DNA from: Candidatus Poribacteria bacterium
GTDB lineage: Bacteria; Poribacteria; WGA-4E; WGA-3G
Assembly: GCA_009843785.1 (NCBI GenBank)
Contig: VYCT01000244.1
Coordinates: 1-35,950 of the forward strand
Length of the DNA stretch: 35,950 nt
Direction: 5' to 3'
Shown piece after piece: positions 1 to 20,274 of the stretch (position 1 is its first letter; every line of letters begins with the position of its first letter). A model generated the notes under the pieces. That model did no database searches. It saw only the letters and a list, made by a program, of their open reading frames with translations, and was not told the origin of the DNA. The translations under genes were made by a program, and so were the position numbers.

Positions 1-651
1 GTTCCTGAAGTTAAAACCAAATGGCAAAATAAGTTTGAGCTTATTTTCGTTGATGAATACCAAGACACTGACCCTATTCAATATCGGATTGTAAAAGCTC
101 TGGCAGAATCTCATCAAAATTTGCGTGTTGTTGGGGATGATGACCAGGGAATTTACGGTTGGCGGGGTGCTGATATCCAGAACATATTAAACTTTGAGAA
201 AAACTATCCGAACGCCAAGATAATTTCACTCGGGCAAAATTATCGTTCAACACAAAAGATAGTTGAGATCTCTCATGCTTTGGCAGAATTTAATCCAGAT
301 CGGCGAGATAAGGAACTATTCACGCGGAACTTTGAAGGTGAGAAAGTAAAATATCTCCACTGTGACAATGATGAGGAAGAGGCTGTTACCATCGCCTCTT
401 TTATCCAGCGGTCTATTGATCAAGGCAATTGGCAGCCAAGCGATTTTGCAGTGCTGTACCGTACGAATAAACAAGCATCCGCTTTTAAAACAGCACTTAG
501 TGATTTAGGAATTCAGTATCATATAGTTGGCAATTCCTTAAATGTACCTGCAATAGGTATCTCCATCATGACAATTCATAAATCTAAGGGGTTAGAATTT
601 CCGAATGTATTTGTTACAGGAATATGCCAAGACTTGTTACCACATTATTAA
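1..651 (+). CDS. UvrD/PcrA-type SF1 helicase, C-terminal part, 5'-partial, ends at an in-frame stop
   Basis: The frame is open from the first base of the window, so the gene begins upstream. Numbering from base 1, SF1A helicase motifs appear in order: motif II DEYQDT (18-23), motif III around GDDDQGIYGWRGAD (45-58), motif IV LGQNYRS (77-83) and motif V TIHKSKGLEF (191-200). The family unwinds DNA with ATP in repair and replication. Two things are odd. Only about ten residues separate the sequence IVGN from motif V, where PcrA and UvrD carry the large 2B subdomain, so 2B is absent. The frame stops at TAA (649-651) just after LLPHY, before the essential motif VI, which follows at once in the same frame downstream. 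This may be a decayed gene, a stop that is read through, or a sequencing error. The helicase assignment is firm; functionality is doubtful. Confidence 0.88.
   Translation, partial: VPEVKTKWQNKFELIFVDEYQDTDPIQYRIVKALAESHQNLRVVGDDDQGIYGWRGADIQNILNFEKNYPNAKIISLGQNYRSTQKIVEISHALAEFNPDRRDKELFTRNFEGEKVKYLHCDNDEEEAVTIASFIQRSIDQGNWQPSDFAVLYRTNKQASAFKTALSDLGIQYHIVGNSLNVPAIGISIMTIHKSKGLEFPNVFVTGICQDLLPHY
649..651 (+). other. In-frame TAA separating helicase motif V from motif VI
   Basis: The TAA lies between codons for LLPHY and NSDEKDWGEELRLLYVAMTR, which form one continuous helicase sequence when the stop is counted as a single residue. Frame does not change across it, so one base substitution (for example from CAA, GAA or AAA) would explain it. 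There is no good ribosome binding site for immediate restart. I see no selenocysteine- or pyrrolysine-type context, since those recode TGA and TAG rather than TAA. Confidence 0.85.
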
Positions 652-681
652 AATAGCGACGAAAAGGACTGGGGTGAGGAA

Positions 682-3141
682 TTGCGGCTCCTTTACGTCG
701 CAATGACTCGCGCGAAAAATTGGTTATGTCTATCTTCTTATGAAGAAGAAGGGGAATCCCAACATAAGCGTGGAAGGTCTCCTTTTTTGGAACGTGGTTA
801 TATTCCTTCCAGTCTCCTTGAATCTGTAGAGACACTTGAAAGCGTGCTTATTCCTCCGAGTCCGCCAGAAACGACTGTTCCGGTTCCTACTGGAGAAACA
901 GCAGAATATATTGAACCTCTCCCTGAGAAACTACTTGGGGATGGTATGACTGTCCTGGGGATAGATCCTGGTATCCAAAATGTGGGTTGGTCAATCACTA
1001 AAAAATCACCAGTTGGCTATACTGTCATTAAATATGGCACACAAACTACCAGAAATTGGCAAGAAACACTTATACTAACGAGAAATGAAATCAGTGAACT
1101 GATAACTCGGCACCGCCCCGATGCAATTGCAGTTGAAAAACTTGATGGGGCTACAGAGGAGTGGTTCCGTTACGTCGCAGGATGTGTAGCCACTATAAGA
1201 AATATTGCCGATCAACACGGAATTGAATGCCGCCTCTATACACCACAGGAAGTTAAAGCCGCCGCTACGGGTAATAGGAATGCTTGTAAAGTAGATGTGC
1301 AAAAAGGTGTAAAGTCGGTGTGCAATCTTCCACAAATCCCGGAACCACACCACTCCGCAGATGCAATTGCCACAAGTCTCTGTTACCTCAGAAATTACCT
1401 GAACTCTGCCCGTTTTGAAGGCAACAAACGAAAACAGGAACACTATGAAGTGGGTTGTGATTATTTGGATAGGAAGCAATATGAAAAAGCAATTAATACG
1501 TTCAAAGAGACAATAAACATAGATCCTGTTTATACAGATGCACACTATGAACTGGGGCGAGCGTACCTTGTACAGAATGATTTGGATAGAGCGGAGACAG
1601 CAGCTAAAACTGCCCTAAGACTTGGTGAAAATAATCATCCTGATTCGCAGAAACTTTTGGGTGCTATAACACATTACCGTTCTGGTTGTAATTTCTTGAA
1701 CATTAGTAAATCGAATATAGCGATTGCCAAATTCCGAGAATCTATAAACTTAGAACCCATTTTTACTGAAGCACATTGTGGACTTAGTAGGGCATACTTT
1801 GAGGTAAATAAACTGGAGGCAGCGAAAAAAGCAGCAGAAGAAGCCTTAAAACTCAGATATGAATATCCACCTGCCCAGGAACTTTTGGTGGATATAAAGA
1901 AGAGATATTACTACAACGGCAAGATTTGCTTTAACCGCGAGGAATACACTCAAGCGATTTTTGAATTTCAAAAGGCAGTCGAAATTGATCAAAATTTTAA
2001 AGGTGCCCATCGCTTCATTGGTGAGACTTATTTGAAATTAGAGGATCTTGAAAAATCAGAAAAAAGCGCGAGAGACGCATTACAGATTGACTCCACCTAC
2101 CAACCCGCTGTTGAACTGTTAGGTGAAATAAAACAGAAACACAAGGAGCGTGGCGATGATTACCGGAAGAGAAAAGCGTGCGCAAAGGCTGTAAAATCCT
2201 ACCAGCAAGCGATACGCATTGATGATAAATACAAAAAAGCCTATAACAATCTCGGAATGGTTTATCAAGACATGAAGGAATATAGCAAAGCAATAAGGGC
2301 CTACCAACAAGCAATAAGTATTGATGAAAGATACCAAGTACCTCATAATAATCTTGGCATGGTTTACCACAAAATTGGTGAACATGCTAAGGCTGTAAAC
2401 TCACTACAGTGTGCAATTGTAATCAATCCTGATTATCAAACAGCACACCACAACCTTGCTTTCATTTACTTTGAAATGGGAAATTTACAAGACGCAAGCA
2501 AAAAAGTGGTAGAGGCTTCAAAGCTTGATACTAATAATCAGAATACTCTTAGACTTTTGAAGGATATACAGCGTGCCTATTCAAAACAAGGACGTGATTA
2601 CTTTAGACGGGGCGATCTCGCTGCAGCAGAAATTTCTGTGAAGGAAGCTCTAACGCTCACTTCCAACTATCAACCTGCTTACAAACTTTTGGATAAAATA
2701 AAACAAGCGTATTATAAACATGGCTTAACATCCCTTAAACAGAACGAATGGAAGGCAGCAGAAAAATTCGCGGAAGAAGTATTGAGAATTGATCCAAACT
2801 ATGAGCCTGCAAATGAACTCTTAAAGCAAGCATATTATGAACAGAGCCTTGTTCATATAGAAAACGATAGATATGTTGAAGGTATAAGCAAGCTTCAAAA
2901 ATCAAAAGATATCGATCCAAATTGTGAAAAAACGCTCTACTACCTTGGATTTGCCTACTTCAAATTGGACAGATTGAAAGAGGCACAAATGATGACTGAA
3001 GAAGCATTATTAATTCAATCAAACTATCCTCTCGCTCAAAAACTTCTGATAGAAATAAAAGATGCCCGTAATTGGTTGAAAGTAGGAGGGGCAAAGGTGC
3101 GAGAATTGGCCCGTTGGATAGTAAACCGTATTGGGTTGTAA
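682..3141 (+). CDS. Helicase motif VI tail fused to RuvC-type resolvase domain and TPR array
   Basis: The open frame (819 codons from TTG 682) starts with UvrD motif VI, LLYVAMTRAK (3-12), so it continues the interrupted helicase. Residues 89-245 form a RuvC Holliday-junction resolvase domain: GIDPG with Asp95, AVEKL with Glu152, a YTPQEVK segment, and HHSADAIA with His224 and Asp227. The Asp-Glu and Glu-Asp spacings (57 and 75) closely match E. coli RuvC (D7, E66, D141), and a His three before the last Asp occurs in some RuvCs, so the active site looks intact. From about 250 to 795 come roughly fourteen to sixteen TPR units, then a short basic amphipathic tail. If the TAA is a true stop, translation could restart at ATG 946, which has GGGGATGG just upstream and begins exactly at the RuvC domain. 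A RuvC domain with TPRs, and a helicase in front, is not an arrangement I know. Cellular role unknown; recombination or repair is inferred. Confidence 0.8.
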   Translation: MRLLYVAMTRAKNWLCLSSYEEEGESQHKRGRSPFLERGYIPSSLLESVETLESVLIPPSPPETTVPVPTGETAEYIEPLPEKLLGDGMTVLGIDPGIQNVGWSITKKSPVGYTVIKYGTQTTRNWQETLILTRNEISELITRHRPDAIAVEKLDGATEEWFRYVAGCVATIRNIADQHGIECRLYTPQEVKAAATGNRNACKVDVQKGVKSVCNLPQIPEPHHSADAIATSLCYLRNYLNSARFEGNKRKQEHYEVGCDYLDRKQYEKAINTFKETINIDPVYTDAHYELGRAYLVQNDLDRAETAAKTALRLGENNHPDSQKLLGAITHYRSGCNFLNISKSNIAIAKFRESINLEPIFTEAHCGLSRAYFEVNKLEAAKKAAEEALKLRYEYPPAQELLVDIKKRYYYNGKICFNREEYTQAIFEFQKAVEIDQNFKGAHRFIGETYLKLEDLEKSEKSARDALQIDSTYQPAVELLGEIKQKHKERGDDYRKRKACAKAVKSYQQAIRIDDKYKKAYNNLGMVYQDMKEYSKAIRAYQQAISIDERYQVPHNNLGMVYHKIGEHAKAVNSLQCAIVINPDYQTAHHNLAFIYFEMGNLQDASKKVVEASKLDTNNQNTLRLLKDIQRAYSKQGRDYFRRGDLAAAEISVKEALTLTSNYQPAYKLLDKIKQAYYKHGLTSLKQNEWKAAEKFAEEVLRIDPNYEPANELLKQAYYEQSLVHIENDRYVEGISKLQKSKDIDPNCEKTLYYLGFAYFKLDRLKEAQMMTEEALLIQSNYPLAQKLLIEIKDARNWLKVGGAKVRELARWIVNRIGL

Positions 3142-3247
3142 AGAAAACGTAATAAGATATTGGACATCTAATCGGTATTGATGATACTGTTCAATTGTCC
3201 AGGCATTGAGTTTTAAAAGCACGCACAATTCGTCCAGAGAAATATAC

Positions 3248-4510
3248 ATGAACACACACCAAAACTACGACACCATTGTTATCGGGGGCGGACCTGCTGG
3301 CAGCACTGTCGCGACGCTTGTTGCTGAACACGGGCATCGCGTGCTGCTGCTTGAACGGGCAACGACACCGCAATTCAAAATCGGTGAATCGCTGATTCCT
3401 GCGACATACTGGACTTTCAAACGGCTCGGTATGCTCGAAAAACTGCGGACAAGTCATTTTCCACAGAAGTACAGTGTACAGTTCTATTCACGCTCAGGTA
3501 AAGGCTCCACGCCGTTCTACTTCTTTCAAACCAATCCGCACGAGAGCGCGGTCACATGGCAGGTCCTGCGGAGTGAATTCGATCAGATGCTCTTGGACAA
3601 TGCGAAAGAGAAAGGCGTCGAGGTCCACCGCGGGGTCGGCGTGCGCGAAGTCCTTTTTGACGGCGATACAGCAACCGGTGTTGTTACACAGCACACAGAC
3701 GGCACTCGCGAAACCCTTCATGCAACTGTCATTGTCGATTCTACTGGGCAGCGGTCGCTCATCGGAAGGCAGCTGAACCTGAATACGATAGAGCCGAACC
3801 TCAAAATGGCATCGCTCTTTACGCACTATGAAGGTGGTCATAGAGACGAAGGTATCGACGAGGGGGCAACACTTATTTTGCACACCGAAGCGAAAGATTC
3901 TTGGTTCTGGTCGATCCCACTGCCATATAACCGCACGAGTATTGGCGTTGTAGGTGCATTGGACTATCTGCTTCAAAACCGCAGAGATGCTAACGGCAAA
4001 CTCGACACTCAGAAAATCTTCACCGAAGAACTCAATAAATGCCTACCCCTGAAGCAACGGCTCGAAAGTGCGAAGCAGCTTCTTCCGATCCAAACGACTC
4101 AAGATTTTTCTTACCGCGCCAGCCGTATCGCAGGTAATCACTGGGTATTGGTAGGCGATGCCTTCGGCTTCCTGGATCCTGTCTACTCGACTGGACTGTT
4201 TTTGGCACTCAAATCCGGTGAGATGGCAGCAGATGTTATCATTGAAGCCTTCCGAAAAAACGATTTTTCCGAAACGCAGCTTGGGAGTTTTGGACCGGCG
4301 TTTGTGGATGGAATGGAGGCATTTCGGAAACTTGTTTACGCTTTTTATACAAAAGAATTCAGTTTTGCGCGGTTTCTATCAGAACACCCGGAACATCAGG
4401 GAGGTATCGTTGACATTCTGAGCGGTGATGTGTTTAGGAAAGACGTAACGCACATCTTCCCGGCGATGGCAGAAATGTGTCCACTGCCACCTGAGATATC
4501 GCTCGATTAA
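3248..4510 (+). CDS. Flavin-dependent halogenase-like FAD oxidoreductase
   Basis: A 420-residue flavoprotein of the tryptophan/phenol halogenase and geranylgeranyl-reductase superfamily. Visible motifs are the FAD-binding GGGPAGS (13-19), Glu36 at the end of the second strand, GES (46-48), the halogenase hallmark WxWxIP as WFWSIP (219-224), and the second FAD motif GDAFGFLDP (303-311) followed by YSTG. FPQKY with Lys74 sits where phenol-type halogenases carry their catalytic lysine. Halogenases use FADH2, oxygen and halide to halogenate aromatic substrates; the substrate here cannot be read from sequence. ATG 3248 follows an AGAGA box; the frame extends upstream without a better start. It lies 36 bp before the TAXI gene and may be co-transcribed with it. 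No biosynthetic cluster (PKS, NRPS or carrier protein) is nearby, and no flavin reductase gene. WxWxIP also occurs in halogenase-like proteins without proven activity. Confidence 0.8.
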   Translation: MNTHQNYDTIVIGGGPAGSTVATLVAEHGHRVLLLERATTPQFKIGESLIPATYWTFKRLGMLEKLRTSHFPQKYSVQFYSRSGKGSTPFYFFQTNPHESAVTWQVLRSEFDQMLLDNAKEKGVEVHRGVGVREVLFDGDTATGVVTQHTDGTRETLHATVIVDSTGQRSLIGRQLNLNTIEPNLKMASLFTHYEGGHRDEGIDEGATLILHTEAKDSWFWSIPLPYNRTSIGVVGALDYLLQNRRDANGKLDTQKIFTEELNKCLPLKQRLESAKQLLPIQTTQDFSYRASRIAGNHWVLVGDAFGFLDPVYSTGLFLALKSGEMAADVIIEAFRKNDFSETQLGSFGPAFVDGMEAFRKLVYAFYTKEFSFARFLSEHPEHQGGIVDILSGDVFRKDVTHIFPAMAEMCPLPPEISLD

Positions 4511-4546: not shown

Positions 4547-5554
4547 ATGAAATCAATCACGTCCTACCTATCCATTACTGCTCTCATCCTTGCTCTGAGT
4601 ACGGGGTTTGGATGCGATAACACCCAAAAACGCCAATCTGCCGAGGGTGAGAAGGCAGAAGCCAAGCGTGTCCACATCAGCATCGGGACAGCCCCTACGG
4701 GTGGTGCCTTTTTCGTCGTCGGTAGTGCAATCGCTGCTGTCGTTAGCGATAACACTTCGGAAACGGGTTGGGAAGTCACCGCTGAAAGCACAAAAGGCAC
4801 ACAGGAAAACATCCGCCGCCTCGCGAATAATGAGCTGGAGTTCGCACTTGCGAACGCCGCGATCTCGTACTTCGCTGTGCGTGGCGAAGGTGCGTGGAAA
4901 ACGGAACATCCCATCCGTGCCGTTATGACACTTGCTCCGAACGTCGGTCTGTTTATTACACCGCAGTCCTCTGATATCCGTAAAATCCAAGATTTCGCGG
5001 GAAAACGGATTGTCGTTGGCCCTGCAGGCGCAGGTTTTGAGTATTTCCTCAGACCAATATTGTCTGCACATGGCATCACTTACGAAGATTTTTCACCGCT
5101 TAACAGCACTTACACCGGAGCAAAGGATCTGTTAGCAGACGGTTCCGCGGCTGCAGCATTCATGGGCGGTGCGATCCCAACGCCAGCAGTCATACAAGCC
5201 AGTACGTCTCAAGACATCTTCTTCATTCCATTCGATGAGACAGCAAAACAGTCTCTTTTTGATACCTACCCTTTCTTTAACGCGATTACGATCCCTGCCG
5301 ATACCTATAAAGGACAGACAGAGCCGTTTGCGAGTATGAACGTGGGTTCAATGCACCTGATCACTGCCGAGACAACTGATGAACGGACGGTTTATGAATT
5401 CACGAAAACCTTGTACACACATCGCGCCGAAGTCGTCAAGATACATAAAGCTGGGAAAGCGATTAATCCGACAAACATTGTCAAAAACGTAGGTACACCT
5501 TTCCATCCGGGTGCGATCCGCTTCTATCGCGAAATCGGTATCTGGAACGAATAA
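4547..5554 (+). CDS. TAXI-family TRAP transporter solute-binding protein
   Basis: A 335-residue periplasmic binding protein of the TAXI (TRAP-associated extracytoplasmic immunogenic) family. It has an N-terminal hydrophobic signal (about 5-22) ending at Cys23. The lipobox (GFGC) is imperfect, so lipid anchoring is likely but not certain. The mature part opens with ISIGTAPTGGAFFVVG, typical of the family, followed by ESTKGTQENIRRLANNELEFALAN and VGPAGAGFEYFLRP, which line the ligand pocket in relatives. Family members pass small organic acids or amino acids to a TRAP membrane protein; the ligand here is unknown. A good Shine-Dalgarno (AGGAG) precedes ATG 4547. No DctQ/DctM or fused 4TM-12TM TRAP permease is in the window, so it is an orphan or works with a permease elsewhere. 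A strong terminator follows. Confidence 0.9.
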   Translation: MKSITSYLSITALILALSTGFGCDNTQKRQSAEGEKAEAKRVHISIGTAPTGGAFFVVGSAIAAVVSDNTSETGWEVTAESTKGTQENIRRLANNELEFALANAAISYFAVRGEGAWKTEHPIRAVMTLAPNVGLFITPQSSDIRKIQDFAGKRIVVGPAGAGFEYFLRPILSAHGITYEDFSPLNSTYTGAKDLLADGSAAAAFMGGAIPTPAVIQASTSQDIFFIPFDETAKQSLFDTYPFFNAITIPADTYKGQTEPFASMNVGSMHLITAETTDERTVYEFTKTLYTHRAEVVKIHKAGKAINPTNIVKNVGTPFHPGAIRFYREIGIWNE

Positions 5555-9081: not shown

Positions 9082-10185
9082 ATGGAACTAACTTTTGAAA
9101 AACATGACATCTTGCATGCGCTGCAAATACTGCAAGGTGTCGCGAGTGGACGCAATACTTTACCGATCCTTTCAAACGTCCTGATCCAAGCCGCAGATGG
9201 GAAGATTGAATGTGTCGCAACGGATCTCGAAGTCGGGATTAAGATTAAGGTGGAAGGTGCCATTCAAGAAGATGGCGCGATCACTGTTTCCGCTAAAAAA
9301 TTGGCGGATATCGTCAAAGAACTCCCCGAAGATAATGCCATCAACCTTGTGACCACGGCAAATGATCGCGTTGAGATCACTTGCGGTGCTGGGGTTTATA
9401 AGATTATTGGACTTCCGGGCGAAGAATTTCCGCAATTGCCTTCTGTTGATGGGCATTCACTGACAGTCGATGGTGAAACGTTGCGTGCTGTCATCCGTAG
9501 AACCGAATTCGCCGCAGCGACAGAGGACGTTCGATACTACCTCAATGGACTCTACTTTAATTTTCTTGAAGATAAGACCGAAGTTGTCGCGACTGACGCG
9601 ATATGGCTTGCCCTCGCCCATTGTGAACCGTTTAAAGCACCAGAAAATGTAGAGGGATTCATTGTTCCACTGAAAGCCGTTAAAGAGATTGAGCGTACTT
9701 TCGCTGAATCGGGGACAGTGCAGATCTCAATCCTTGAAAATCAGATTCTGCTCGCTGATGACCATGCGACCTTAACCACACGGCTTGTTGAAGGAGATTA
9801 TCCGAAATATCAGGCACTCATCCCTGAGGCCACGACAGGTAGAGCGGTTGTCTCCAGAGAACAGTTCCTCCAAGCGAGCCGACGTGTGGCACTGCTATCA
9901 AATCCAAAAAGTTATGCAATCTGTTTAGAAATCAGTACTGAGCAGATCCATCTCTCGACGAACACCCCGGAATTAGGGGAGGCACACGAGACGATCTCTG
10001 TTGAGTCCTGCAATGGACGCGAACGCATTGGGCTTGATGCACGCTTGCTGATTGAGACGCTATCACACATCGAAACAGAATCCGTCGCGATTGAATTTAC
10101 AACTGCGGTGACCACTGTCGCCTTTAAACCCGTCGGTGAGGAAGGACATCTTTGTCTTATACACCCGATGCGCTTGGGCTCTTAG
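9082..10185 (+). CDS. dnaN: DNA polymerase III beta sliding clamp, diverged copy 1
   Basis: A 367-residue sliding clamp with three clamp domains. It begins MELTFEKHD with an AAGGAG site upstream and ends PMRLGS. In replication the clamp encircles DNA and tethers polymerase III and repair proteins. It is paired with a very similar full-length clamp gene 198 bp downstream. The strongly conserved TDGHRLA motif, which forms part of the cleft where partner proteins bind, reads TDAIWLA here (171-177): the His and Arg equivalent to E. coli H175 and R176 are replaced by Ile and Trp. The rest of the fold, including the SNPKSYAI region and the C-terminal PMRL, is kept. The gene therefore looks expressed but with altered partner binding, a specialised or decaying paralogue. 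A 90-bp stretch (9655-9744) is identical to copy 2. No dnaA, recF or gyrB is nearby. Confidence 0.93.
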   Translation: MELTFEKHDILHALQILQGVASGRNTLPILSNVLIQAADGKIECVATDLEVGIKIKVEGAIQEDGAITVSAKKLADIVKELPEDNAINLVTTANDRVEITCGAGVYKIIGLPGEEFPQLPSVDGHSLTVDGETLRAVIRRTEFAAATEDVRYYLNGLYFNFLEDKTEVVATDAIWLALAHCEPFKAPENVEGFIVPLKAVKEIERTFAESGTVQISILENQILLADDHATLTTRLVEGDYPKYQALIPEATTGRAVVSREQFLQASRRVALLSNPKSYAICLEISTEQIHLSTNTPELGEAHETISVESCNGRERIGLDARLLIETLSHIETESVAIEFTTAVTTVAFKPVGEEGHLCLIHPMRLGS

Positions 10186-10353: not shown

Positions 10354-10383
10354 TACTGAAATGCTTAATAGGGAAAATTGGAA

Positions 10384-11490
10384 ATGGAACTCACTTTTGA
10401 TGAAAAATATGACCTCTTGCATGCGCTGCAAGTGCTACAAGGTGTAGCGAGTGGACGCAATGTCTTACCGATTCTTTCAAACGTTCTTATCCAAGCGGTA
10501 GATGGGAAGATTGAATGTGTCGCAACGGATCTTGAAGTCGGGATTAAGATTAAGGTAGAAGGTGTCATTCAAGAAGATGGGGCGATTACCGTCTCCGCTA
10601 AAAAATTGGCGGATATCGTCAAAGAACTCCCCGAAGATAAGACGATACGCTTCGTAACCACGGCAAATGATCGTGTTGAAATTACTTGTGGTGATGGGGT
10701 TTATAAGATTATTGGACTCCCAGACGAAGAATTCCCGCAATTACCTTCTGTTGATGGACATTCGCTGACGATCGACGGTGAAACCTTACGCGCTGTTATC
10801 CGTAAAACTGAATTCGCCGCAGCGACCGAAGATGTTCGATACTACCTAAATGGACTCCATTTTAACTTCCTTGAAGATAAAACCGAAGTCGTTGGGACCG
10901 ATATGCATCGGCTTGCACTCGCGCAGTGTGAACCGTTCGAGACTCCAGAAAATGTGGAAGGATTCATTGTTCCACTGAAAGCCGTTAAAGAGATTGAGCG
11001 TACTTTCGCTGAATCGGGGACAGTGCAGATCTCAATCCTTGAAAATCAGGTGCTGCTCGCTGATGACAAAGCCACTCTAACCACCCGCCTGGTTGAGGGC
11101 GATTATCCGAAATACCAAGAAGTCATTCCGGAAGCACCGGAAGGCACCGCAATCGCCTCGAAAGAACAGTTTCTCCAAGCGAGCCGGCGCGTAGCACTGC
11201 TATCAAACCCCAAAAGCTATGCAATCTGTGTAGAGATTGATGCGGATCAGGTCCAAGTCTCAGTGAATACCCCGGAATTAGGCGAAGCGCACGAGACGTT
11301 TCCTGTGGAATCCGCTACCGGACAGATACGGTTTGGGATTGATGCGCGCCTATTGATAGAGGCGTTGACACACATCGAAACAGAATCCATCGCAATTGAA
11401 TTTACAACCGAAGTAAAGCCTATATTTTTTAAACCGATCGGTGAGGAAGGGCATCTGTGTCTGGTCGTGCCGATGCGCTTGCCATCCTAA
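10384..11490 (+). CDS. dnaN: DNA polymerase III beta sliding clamp, canonical copy 2
   Basis: A 368-residue beta clamp, very similar to the upstream copy along its whole length. The partner-binding motif is intact as TDMHRLA (172-178), in register with E. coli T172-A178, and the C-terminus is VVPMRLPS, like the usual VxPMRL end. This copy is therefore the likely replicative clamp. ATG 10384 matches the start of copy 1; a weak AGGGA site lies upstream. A TTG two codons earlier is also open but lacks support. Third-position differences from copy 1 are spread over most of the gene except for the identical 90-bp block at 10960-11049, which suggests gene conversion. Two clamps in tandem are rare in bacteria. 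Confidence 0.95.
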   Translation: MELTFDEKYDLLHALQVLQGVASGRNVLPILSNVLIQAVDGKIECVATDLEVGIKIKVEGVIQEDGAITVSAKKLADIVKELPEDKTIRFVTTANDRVEITCGDGVYKIIGLPDEEFPQLPSVDGHSLTIDGETLRAVIRKTEFAAATEDVRYYLNGLHFNFLEDKTEVVGTDMHRLALAQCEPFETPENVEGFIVPLKAVKEIERTFAESGTVQISILENQVLLADDKATLTTRLVEGDYPKYQEVIPEAPEGTAIASKEQFLQASRRVALLSNPKSYAICVEIDADQVQVSVNTPELGEAHETFPVESATGQIRFGIDARLLIEALTHIETESIAIEFTTEVKPIFFKPIGEEGHLCLVVPMRLPS

Positions 11491-18840: not shown

Positions 18841-20274
18841 TTAGAAACGCCTCGCCGCGTCAGGTTGTAAACCTAACTTTGCATAGGATTCAGCAGTCGG
18901 GAAAATTTTCCCGGGGTTGCAGAGACCTGTCGGATTAAAAATCTCTTTGACAGTCGCCATCACCTGTAAATCGGCAGGACTGAAAATGAGAGGCATATAG
19001 TCCATCTTTTCGACGCCAATGCCGTGCTCCCCTGTAATTGTGCCACCGACTTCAGCACACACAGAGAGAATCTCCATGTTAACATGCTCCACCCGCTCAC
19101 ACTGGTCTGCGTCGCGTTCGTTAAAGAGGACAATAGGATGGATATTGCCATCGCCTGCGTGAAAGACATTTGCAATCGGAATCTGATACTTCTCGGAGAT
19201 TTCAGAGATCCGCCGTAGCACTTTCGGCAGCGTCGTCCGTGGCACGACCCCATCTTGGGTGATATAGTTTGGCGCGAGTCGTCCGAATGAACCGAACGCA
19301 CTTTTTCGCGCTTTCCAAAGCTGCTGTCGTTCTGCCTCATCCTTGGCGTAATCCACTTTCCGTGCATTGTGCTGCTTAAAGATTTCTAAAATTTGATCGG
19401 TTTGGTTCTGCATACCCGCTTTAATACCATCAAGTTCCACAATTAAAATAGCTTCAGCGTCAAGTGGGAAACCGAATTGGAAAGCTTCCTCCAAAGCACG
19501 GATAACGAGGCTATCCATCATTTCGAGTGCAGCCGGGATAATCCCTTCCCCGATAATCGTTGAAACAGCATTTGAAGCATCATCCATCGTTTCAAAGACA
19601 GCAAGTGCAGTCTGGTAGGCTTGTGGATTGCGGGTGAGACGAACGACGGCTTTCGTCACGATGCCGAATGTGCCTTCAGAACCGATCATCACGCCACGTA
19701 GGTCGTAGCCGGGTATTTCCTCAACGGTTCCACCCAATTCAATAATCTCACCATCGGGTAAAACAACTTCTAATCCAAGCACGTGGTCAGACGTGACCCC
19801 GTATTTCAAGGTATGGGGTCCGCCGGAATTTTCGGCGATATTCCCGCCTATCGTGCACGCCTTCTGGCTTGACGGATCGGGGGCGTAGTGATAGCCTTTG
19901 TTTTCCACAGCCTGTGTCAATAATAGGTTCACAACCCCGGGTTCAACGACTGCGCGTTCGTTTTCAAGGTCTATCTCTAAAATACGATCCATCCGATTGA
20001 GAGCGATGATAATCCCACCTTGAACAGAGAGCATCCCCCCGCTTAAACCTGTCCCACCGCCGCGCGCAATAAACGGCGTGTCGTACCTGTTCGCCAACTT
20101 TACAATATCCGACACCTGTTGCGCTGTATCCGCGAAGACGACTGTATCCGGCATTGCCTTAAAAGAAGGTGCAGCATCACATTCATATACAGCCAGCGCA
20201 GTCGCATCCGTTAAGACATTTTTAGGACCGAGGAGTGCAGAGAGGTCAGCAATAAGTTGTTCTTTCTGGTGCAT
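18841..20274 (-). CDS. glcD: FAD-linked oxidase, GlcD-like glycolate oxidase subunit
   Basis: A 477-residue flavoenzyme of the GlcD/D-lactate dehydrogenase family. The FAD pyrophosphate loop is RGGGTGLSGG (71-80). ACTIGGNIAENSGGPHTLKYG and GYDLRGVMIGSEGTFGIVT complete the FAD domain. The cap/C-terminal domain has FHAGDGNIHP, GEHGIGVEK and NPTGLCNPGKIFP, the catalytic and closing motifs of the family. It oxidises glycolate or another 2-hydroxyacid. ATG 20274 is chosen because AAAGGA lies just upstream; an ATG at 20295 has no site. It heads a minus-strand cluster glcD - orf108 - orf80 - glcE. The last GlcD codon is followed immediately by the next start. Confidence 0.92.
   Translation of the reverse strand: MHQKEQLIADLSALLGPKNVLTDATALAVYECDAAPSFKAMPDTVVFADTAQQVSDIVKLANRYDTPFIARGGGTGLSGGMLSVQGGIIIALNRMDRILEIDLENERAVVEPGVVNLLLTQAVENKGYHYAPDPSSQKACTIGGNIAENSGGPHTLKYGVTSDHVLGLEVVLPDGEIIELGGTVEEIPGYDLRGVMIGSEGTFGIVTKAVVRLTRNPQAYQTALAVFETMDDASNAVSTIIGEGIIPAALEMMDSLVIRALEEAFQFGFPLDAEAILIVELDGIKAGMQNQTDQILEIFKQHNARKVDYAKDEAERQQLWKARKSAFGSFGRLAPNYITQDGVVPRTTLPKVLRRISEISEKYQIPIANVFHAGDGNIHPIVLFNERDADQCERVEHVNMEILSVCAEVGGTITGEHGIGVEKMDYMPLIFSPADLQVMATVKEIFNPTGLCNPGKIFPTAESYAKLGLQPDAARRF

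Follow-up and report, generated by a model that had tools for sequence, protein, structure and literature searches.

SF1A helicases of the PcrA/UvrD type (PDB 1pjr, 3lfu) and the RuvC resolvase (PDB 7xhj, 4ep4, 1hjr) are the closest solved relatives of the two enzymatic parts of the protein described here. Gabija, which pairs the nuclease GajA with the UvrD-like GajB, and other nuclease-helicase defence pairs resemble it in that a UvrD-type ATPase works with a DNA nuclease. Gabija, however, consists of two proteins with a nuclease of the OLD family, where the present locus encodes one fused protein with RuvC, and GajB is without helicase activity (PMC10681800). In another group of bacterial conflict systems, effector and FGS-domain proteins are found with superstructure-forming repeats (PMC7159879). 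We analyzed a stretch of 35,950 nucleotides from contig VYCT01000244.1 of a Candidatus Poribacteria bacterium (hereafter, the window), which begins with a UvrD/PcrA-type helicase, a RuvC nuclease and an array of tetratricopeptide repeats (TPRs) in a single frame. The order helicase-RuvC-TPR in one frame was found in 13 other genomes of one family of Poribacteria, and we conclude that the helicase-RuvC fusion is real and not an artefact. No paper on this architecture was found in the open-access literature, and the papers, plasmids, phages and domain libraries searched gave no instance of a UvrD motor fused to a RuvC-fold nuclease.

The preliminary description of this DNA, made from the sequence alone, had doubted the join should no homologue share the helicase-RuvC junction; such homologues were sought and found uninterrupted in all 13 of these genomes. 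A search with the helicase-to-RuvC stretch gave nine uninterrupted copies in the same genus. Complete relatives are stop-free and 1,083-1,431 residues long, and those with a full N-terminus begin with 'MSKLLxxLNPSQREAV'. The C-terminus is variable: an FGE-sulfatase (C-type-lectin-fold) domain ends six of the 13 copies with a readable C-terminus, the window copy included among the 13. These six are L027 and L030, called with Pfam, and L026, L028, L032 and L088, called by sequence. TPRs and a short tail end the other seven (six relatives and the window copy), and L029 is cut off. The features of the window copy are as follows.

1 to 651, + strand: UvrD/PcrA-type SF1A helicase, motifs II-V (Pfam PF00580/PF13361); motifs I and Ia and domain 1B cut off by the contig edge
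649 to 651, + strand: in-frame TAA separating motif V from motif VI (codons compared with 13 relatives)
655 to 760, + strand: remainder of helicase domain 2A including motif VI (EELRLLYVAMTRA); no 2B between motifs IV and V
761 to 951, + strand: helicase-RuvC linker, ending in the conserved EPLPEKLLGxGMT (alignment with relatives)
952 to 1416, + strand: RuvC nuclease domain without FF wedge (PF02075; solved RuvC by sequence and fold; canonical RuvC alignment)
964 to 966 (D), 1135 to 1137 (E), 1351 to 1353 (H) and 1360 to 1362 (D), + strand: RuvC catalytic codons
1447 to 3060, + strand: TPR array, long enough for about 14-15 repeats (Pfam TPR families; helical hairpins modelled with confidence in L027)
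3061 to 3141, + strand: amphipathic C-terminal tail (NWLKVGGAKVRELARWIVNRIGL) and stop; FGE-sulfatase domain instead in six of the 12 relatives with a readable C-terminus

In detail, frame 1 runs open from the first base of the window as far as the TAA, and from there on to 3141. Pfam matched UvrD-helicase (110 bits) and UvrD_C (103 bits) before the TAA, and the end of UvrD_C, RuvC (71 bits against a curated cut-off of 22) and TPRs (TPR_2, 182 bits) after it, which bears out the earlier claim of one frame interrupted by one TAA. The 'fourteen or more' TPRs claimed with it fit the length of the array (~530 residues), although a strict pattern gives nine. Base 1 of the window is also base 1 of the assembled contig (C266, 37,301 bases; the genome is 6.17 Mb in 391 contigs), and therefore the gene lacks its 5' part. 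This edge is the sole reason for the absence of motifs I and Ia; relatives with a complete N-terminus have both. The TAA that splits the copy is private to it, with no stop at that spot in any of the 13 relatives, so it reflects either a nonsense mutation particular to this copy or an error of assembly; programmed read-through was rejected on the same comparison. As assembled, with the contig edge inside the helicase and the in-frame TAA, no complete protein can be read from the window copy. It is somewhat probable that this copy is a pseudogene or an assembly error and that no full protein is made here, a reading that leaves the family functional elsewhere and is compatible with the others weighed below. 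The private TAA, the truncated contig start and an internally deleted relic in another genome speak for this reading; against it, there is a single stop only, the remaining frame is open and conserved over more than 800 residues, and a sequencing error is possible.

The Asp, Glu, His and Asp of the RuvC active site are invariant in all relatives aligned. The positions first given for them (D95, E152, H224 and D227 of the 682-3141 open reading frame) are exact, but the third residue, like that of Thermus RuvC, is His and not the Asp of Escherichia coli RuvC, with which the spacing had been compared. This part resembles solved RuvC structures in sequence (6lw3, 1e-13), in fold (7xhj, TM-score to target 0.87; 0.81-0.88 over the RuvC structures cited above) and in the four-residue active site. 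It differs from them in being fused and in scoring below the RuvC equivalog cut-offs. Fused and canonical RuvC of the same genomes fall into separate clades (support 100/100). The canonical RuvC of the genus carries 'E-D-I-F-F-S-K-N', whereas the FF is absent from 14 of 14 fused domains; in RuvC this aromatic wedge (FF, or F69) serves for stacking at the junction. The RuvC-fold protein of phage bIL67, which stands alone and likewise has no F69-equivalent aromatic, cleaves both forks and junctions (PMC3864405). Deinococcus radiodurans RuvC also lacks the wedge aromatic, yet it cleaves Holliday junctions (PMC9228767), so that the aromatic wedge is not strictly required for resolution. Its loss from the fused domain makes the role of a strict Holliday-junction resolvase doubtful and suggests, short of proof, a broader cleavage specificity.

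SF1 motifs I-VI are invariant in the full-length relatives, and motifs II-VI are readable in the window. Compared with PcrA of the same genomes, the fused helicase retains domains 1A, 1B and 2A but has fewer than about 20 residues where PcrA has 2B, and RuvC replaces the C-terminal region of PcrA. In a PDB search with the relative L027, residues 4-376 aligned to PcrA 8-377 and 385-471 to 558-649; the best solved-structure match had an E-value of 4e-89. What is missing is thus about PcrA 378-557, and the fusion scores 394 bits against the NCBIfam pcrA equivalog cut-off of 911. By these alignments the fused helicase has the core of UvrD/PcrA but not the whole, the autoinhibitory 2B subdomain being absent. 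Rep monomers become active on deletion of 2B (PMC13238157), and by analogy the fusion motor probably does not have to be freed from 2B inhibition. The fusion is also a naturally occurring SF1A helicase without 2B, of use for studying motor regulation in the absence of that subdomain. A full-length structure prediction of L027 from 13 sequences, of the kind first proposed as a check, was confident for RuvC and the TPRs; the helicase came out too poorly (mostly low pLDDT) for the domains to be placed. Two functions had been put forward at the outset. An unwinding and junction-cutting machine on a TPR scaffold agrees with a true fusion bearing a TPR array, but sits poorly with a wedge-less RuvC of doubtful strict resolvase role and a helicase without 2B. 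We kept the other, in which the protein is a new nuclease system that targets branched DNA, as the better of the two.

In a profile search over 85 genomes of the phylum, 14 proved to carry the fusion, that of the window among them. In the genus of the window 12 of 38 genomes are carriers, in the sister genus of the same family two of 18, and among the 29 others none. In every carrier with a readable downstream flank, the fusion lies directly upstream of the same two genes, which occupy the following positions in the window.

3206 to 4507, + strand: FAD-dependent oxidoreductase (Trp-halogenase-like), fixed downstream neighbour and site marker
4547 to 5551, + strand: TAXI-family TRAP solute-binding lipoprotein (NCBIfam TIGR02122), second fixed downstream neighbour

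Upstream, where the flank is readable, a gene for a 72-residue protein, often with a partner of roughly 160 residues, directly precedes the fusion. These small genes form an array of variable copy number at the same site in most genomes (for example, 7997-8693 in L025 and 7323-8497 in L024). The same site is without trace of the fusion in 19 non-carriers of the genus, and the relic in G009 (L044) retains the first ~45 residues and the TPR part, with the middle deleted. In a tree of the two flanking genes, carriers interleave with non-carriers, with seven changes or more required by its well supported branches. A separate PcrA is present in nearly all genomes searched, as is a separate RuvC. 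Outside the phylum, we scanned genome contigs, viral contigs, and plasmid and phage records for close patterns. The genome-contig scan, which seeks near-exact short peptides, returned a single relative, L003, from a Candidatus Poribacteria MAG; because close patterns were sought, more distant fusions may exist in other phyla. Phage or plasmid carriage was rejected, since the matches there were only stand-alone RuvC stretches; the viral match L090 is a single RuvC of 154 residues. Further downstream in the window are two tandem dnaN genes for the DNA polymerase III beta clamp (9082-10182 and 10378-11487, + strand), each with three clamp domains, and L032 and L089 likewise show two dnaN genes.

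The fusion is far more divergent than its flanks. Between L028 and L030, the oxidoreductases are 98% identical and the fusion cores 69%; between the window and L032, the values are 95% and 61%. The nearest relative of the window fusion is the sister-genus copy L003 (73%; flank 81%), with which its RuvC also groups, and the start of the window TPR array is 82-92% identical to that of L025. L086 has a helicase that falls with that of L003, from the same genus, and a RuvC that falls with that of L026, from the other genus; alternative groupings were rejected (p = 4e-33 for the helicase and 1e-8 for RuvC). The ratio of nonsynonymous to synonymous substitution (dN/dS) was about 0.18 in both helicase and RuvC, an approximate value as many synonymous distances are high. 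We conclude that the locus is a polymorphic, single-site, accessory mosaic, in which RuvC modules have been exchanged between genera.

We give an even chance to the reading, the most likely of those weighed, that the fusion is a one-protein conflict effector, directed against invaders, that cuts branched DNA. The TPR or FGE end would recognise a ligand, be it a cue, a partner or a protein from an invader; this binding, or multimerisation, would release a motor free of 2B inhibition, which would translocate along single-stranded DNA or forks. The RuvC domain would nick the branched or opened DNA reached by the motor, and replicating or recombining foreign (or own) DNA would thus be destroyed. 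An accessory gene at one site, with deep alleles, swapped modules, a decayed copy and purifying selection, additional to its intact housekeeping parents, is more in keeping with conflict than with repair. The trypsin- and caspase-effector FGS conflict systems (PMC7159879) have the same order of effector, repeats and C-terminal FGE, a likeness that extends to half of the fusion alleles only, and that paper leaves UvrD and RuvC unmentioned. The window's own genome has other effectors in this arrangement, a trypsin-TPR-FGE protein (L105, 346-2850, - strand) and a caspase-PEGA-FGE protein (L103, 6483-8351, - strand). No MoxR-vWA, STAND or GTPase partner was noticed among the neighbouring open reading frames, most of which had no domain search; the fused helicase is itself an NTPase. 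With distinctly less than even confidence, we propose in addition that the protein may be a junction- or fork-cutting immune or allorecognition machine in one polypeptide, joining a 2B-less SF1 motor to a wedge-less RuvC nuclease, with swappable TPR/FGE recognition ends and a polymorphism common to genera at one site. Should the protein act as suggested here, recognition, unwinding and branched-DNA cleavage would be joined in one protein, the single-site alleles would be a ready-made set in which to test the targets of the TPR/FGE ends, and a repair nuclease would have been recruited as a conflict effector.

Several results weigh against a conflict effector. The dN/dS values indicate purifying rather than positive selection. 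The fusion was not found in phage and plasmid records by the close-pattern scan, no mobility gene was noticed beside it, and no PADLOC model matched among the ten flanking proteins of L027, on which ground a defence island was rejected. The GajB and RTasHel models of PADLOC do match, but in the helicase part only, which the shared UvrD fold may suffice to explain; membership in Gabija was rejected, as the GajB models cover only the helicase and the neighbours are other genes, with no GajA. The conflict function, together with its trigger, DNA substrate and defensive role, is one that we infer from sequence.

We regard it as unlikely, though worth weighing, that the fusion serves DNA repair or recombination, its helicase clearing recombinase or remodelling forks, its RuvC resolving the junction and its TPRs providing docking sites for partners in the replisome or in repair. 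Helicase and RuvC alike come from families of repair enzymes, dnaN follows a few kilobases downstream of the site, and selection is purifying. Such a role is hard to reconcile with the separate PcrA and RuvC of nearly all same-genus genomes searched, the presence of the fusion in just 14 of 85 genomes and the lost wedge; a variable C-terminus and deep allelism are also atypical of repair genes. We consider it more improbable still that the locus is one of self/non-self recognition (allorecognition) or addiction, in which the sensor ends would recognise the products of other alleles or of the small gene pair and the nuclease-helicase would kill the cell. Deeply divergent alternative alleles at a single site and module exchange between genera are consistent with it, as is the usually adjoining array of the 72-residue protein and its partner, which by eye only looks like a toxin-antitoxin pair. 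These pairs, however, matched no Pfam, NCBIfam or PADLOC family and are present also without the fusion, and no partner gene was noticed that varies in step with it. An assembly artefact at the helicase-RuvC join, for which only the contig edge speaks, has practically no chance of being correct and was rejected, given the identical junction, same site and conserved linker in 13 other assemblies.

Other FGE-bearing loci were noted in the course of the analysis. In the genome of the window (G000), an HSP70-like gene stands beside one FGE-sulfatase protein at G000:C239 (L103, 460-5278, - strand) and beside three at G000:C71 (L107, 427-6135, + strand). The three of L107 have a common N-terminal region, in which the one scanned had no Pfam match. 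Diversification of the FGE domain of the fusion by a retroelement was rejected, with no RVT_1 match in three FGE-bearing carriers (G024, G033 and G035); in three other genomes tested, reverse transcriptase (RVT_1) lies on contigs other than that of the fusion. Elsewhere in G000, a reverse transcriptase adjoins an FGE gene (G000:C291:17920-18651 and 19340-19981), possibly a diversity-generating retroelement, unlinked to the fusion.
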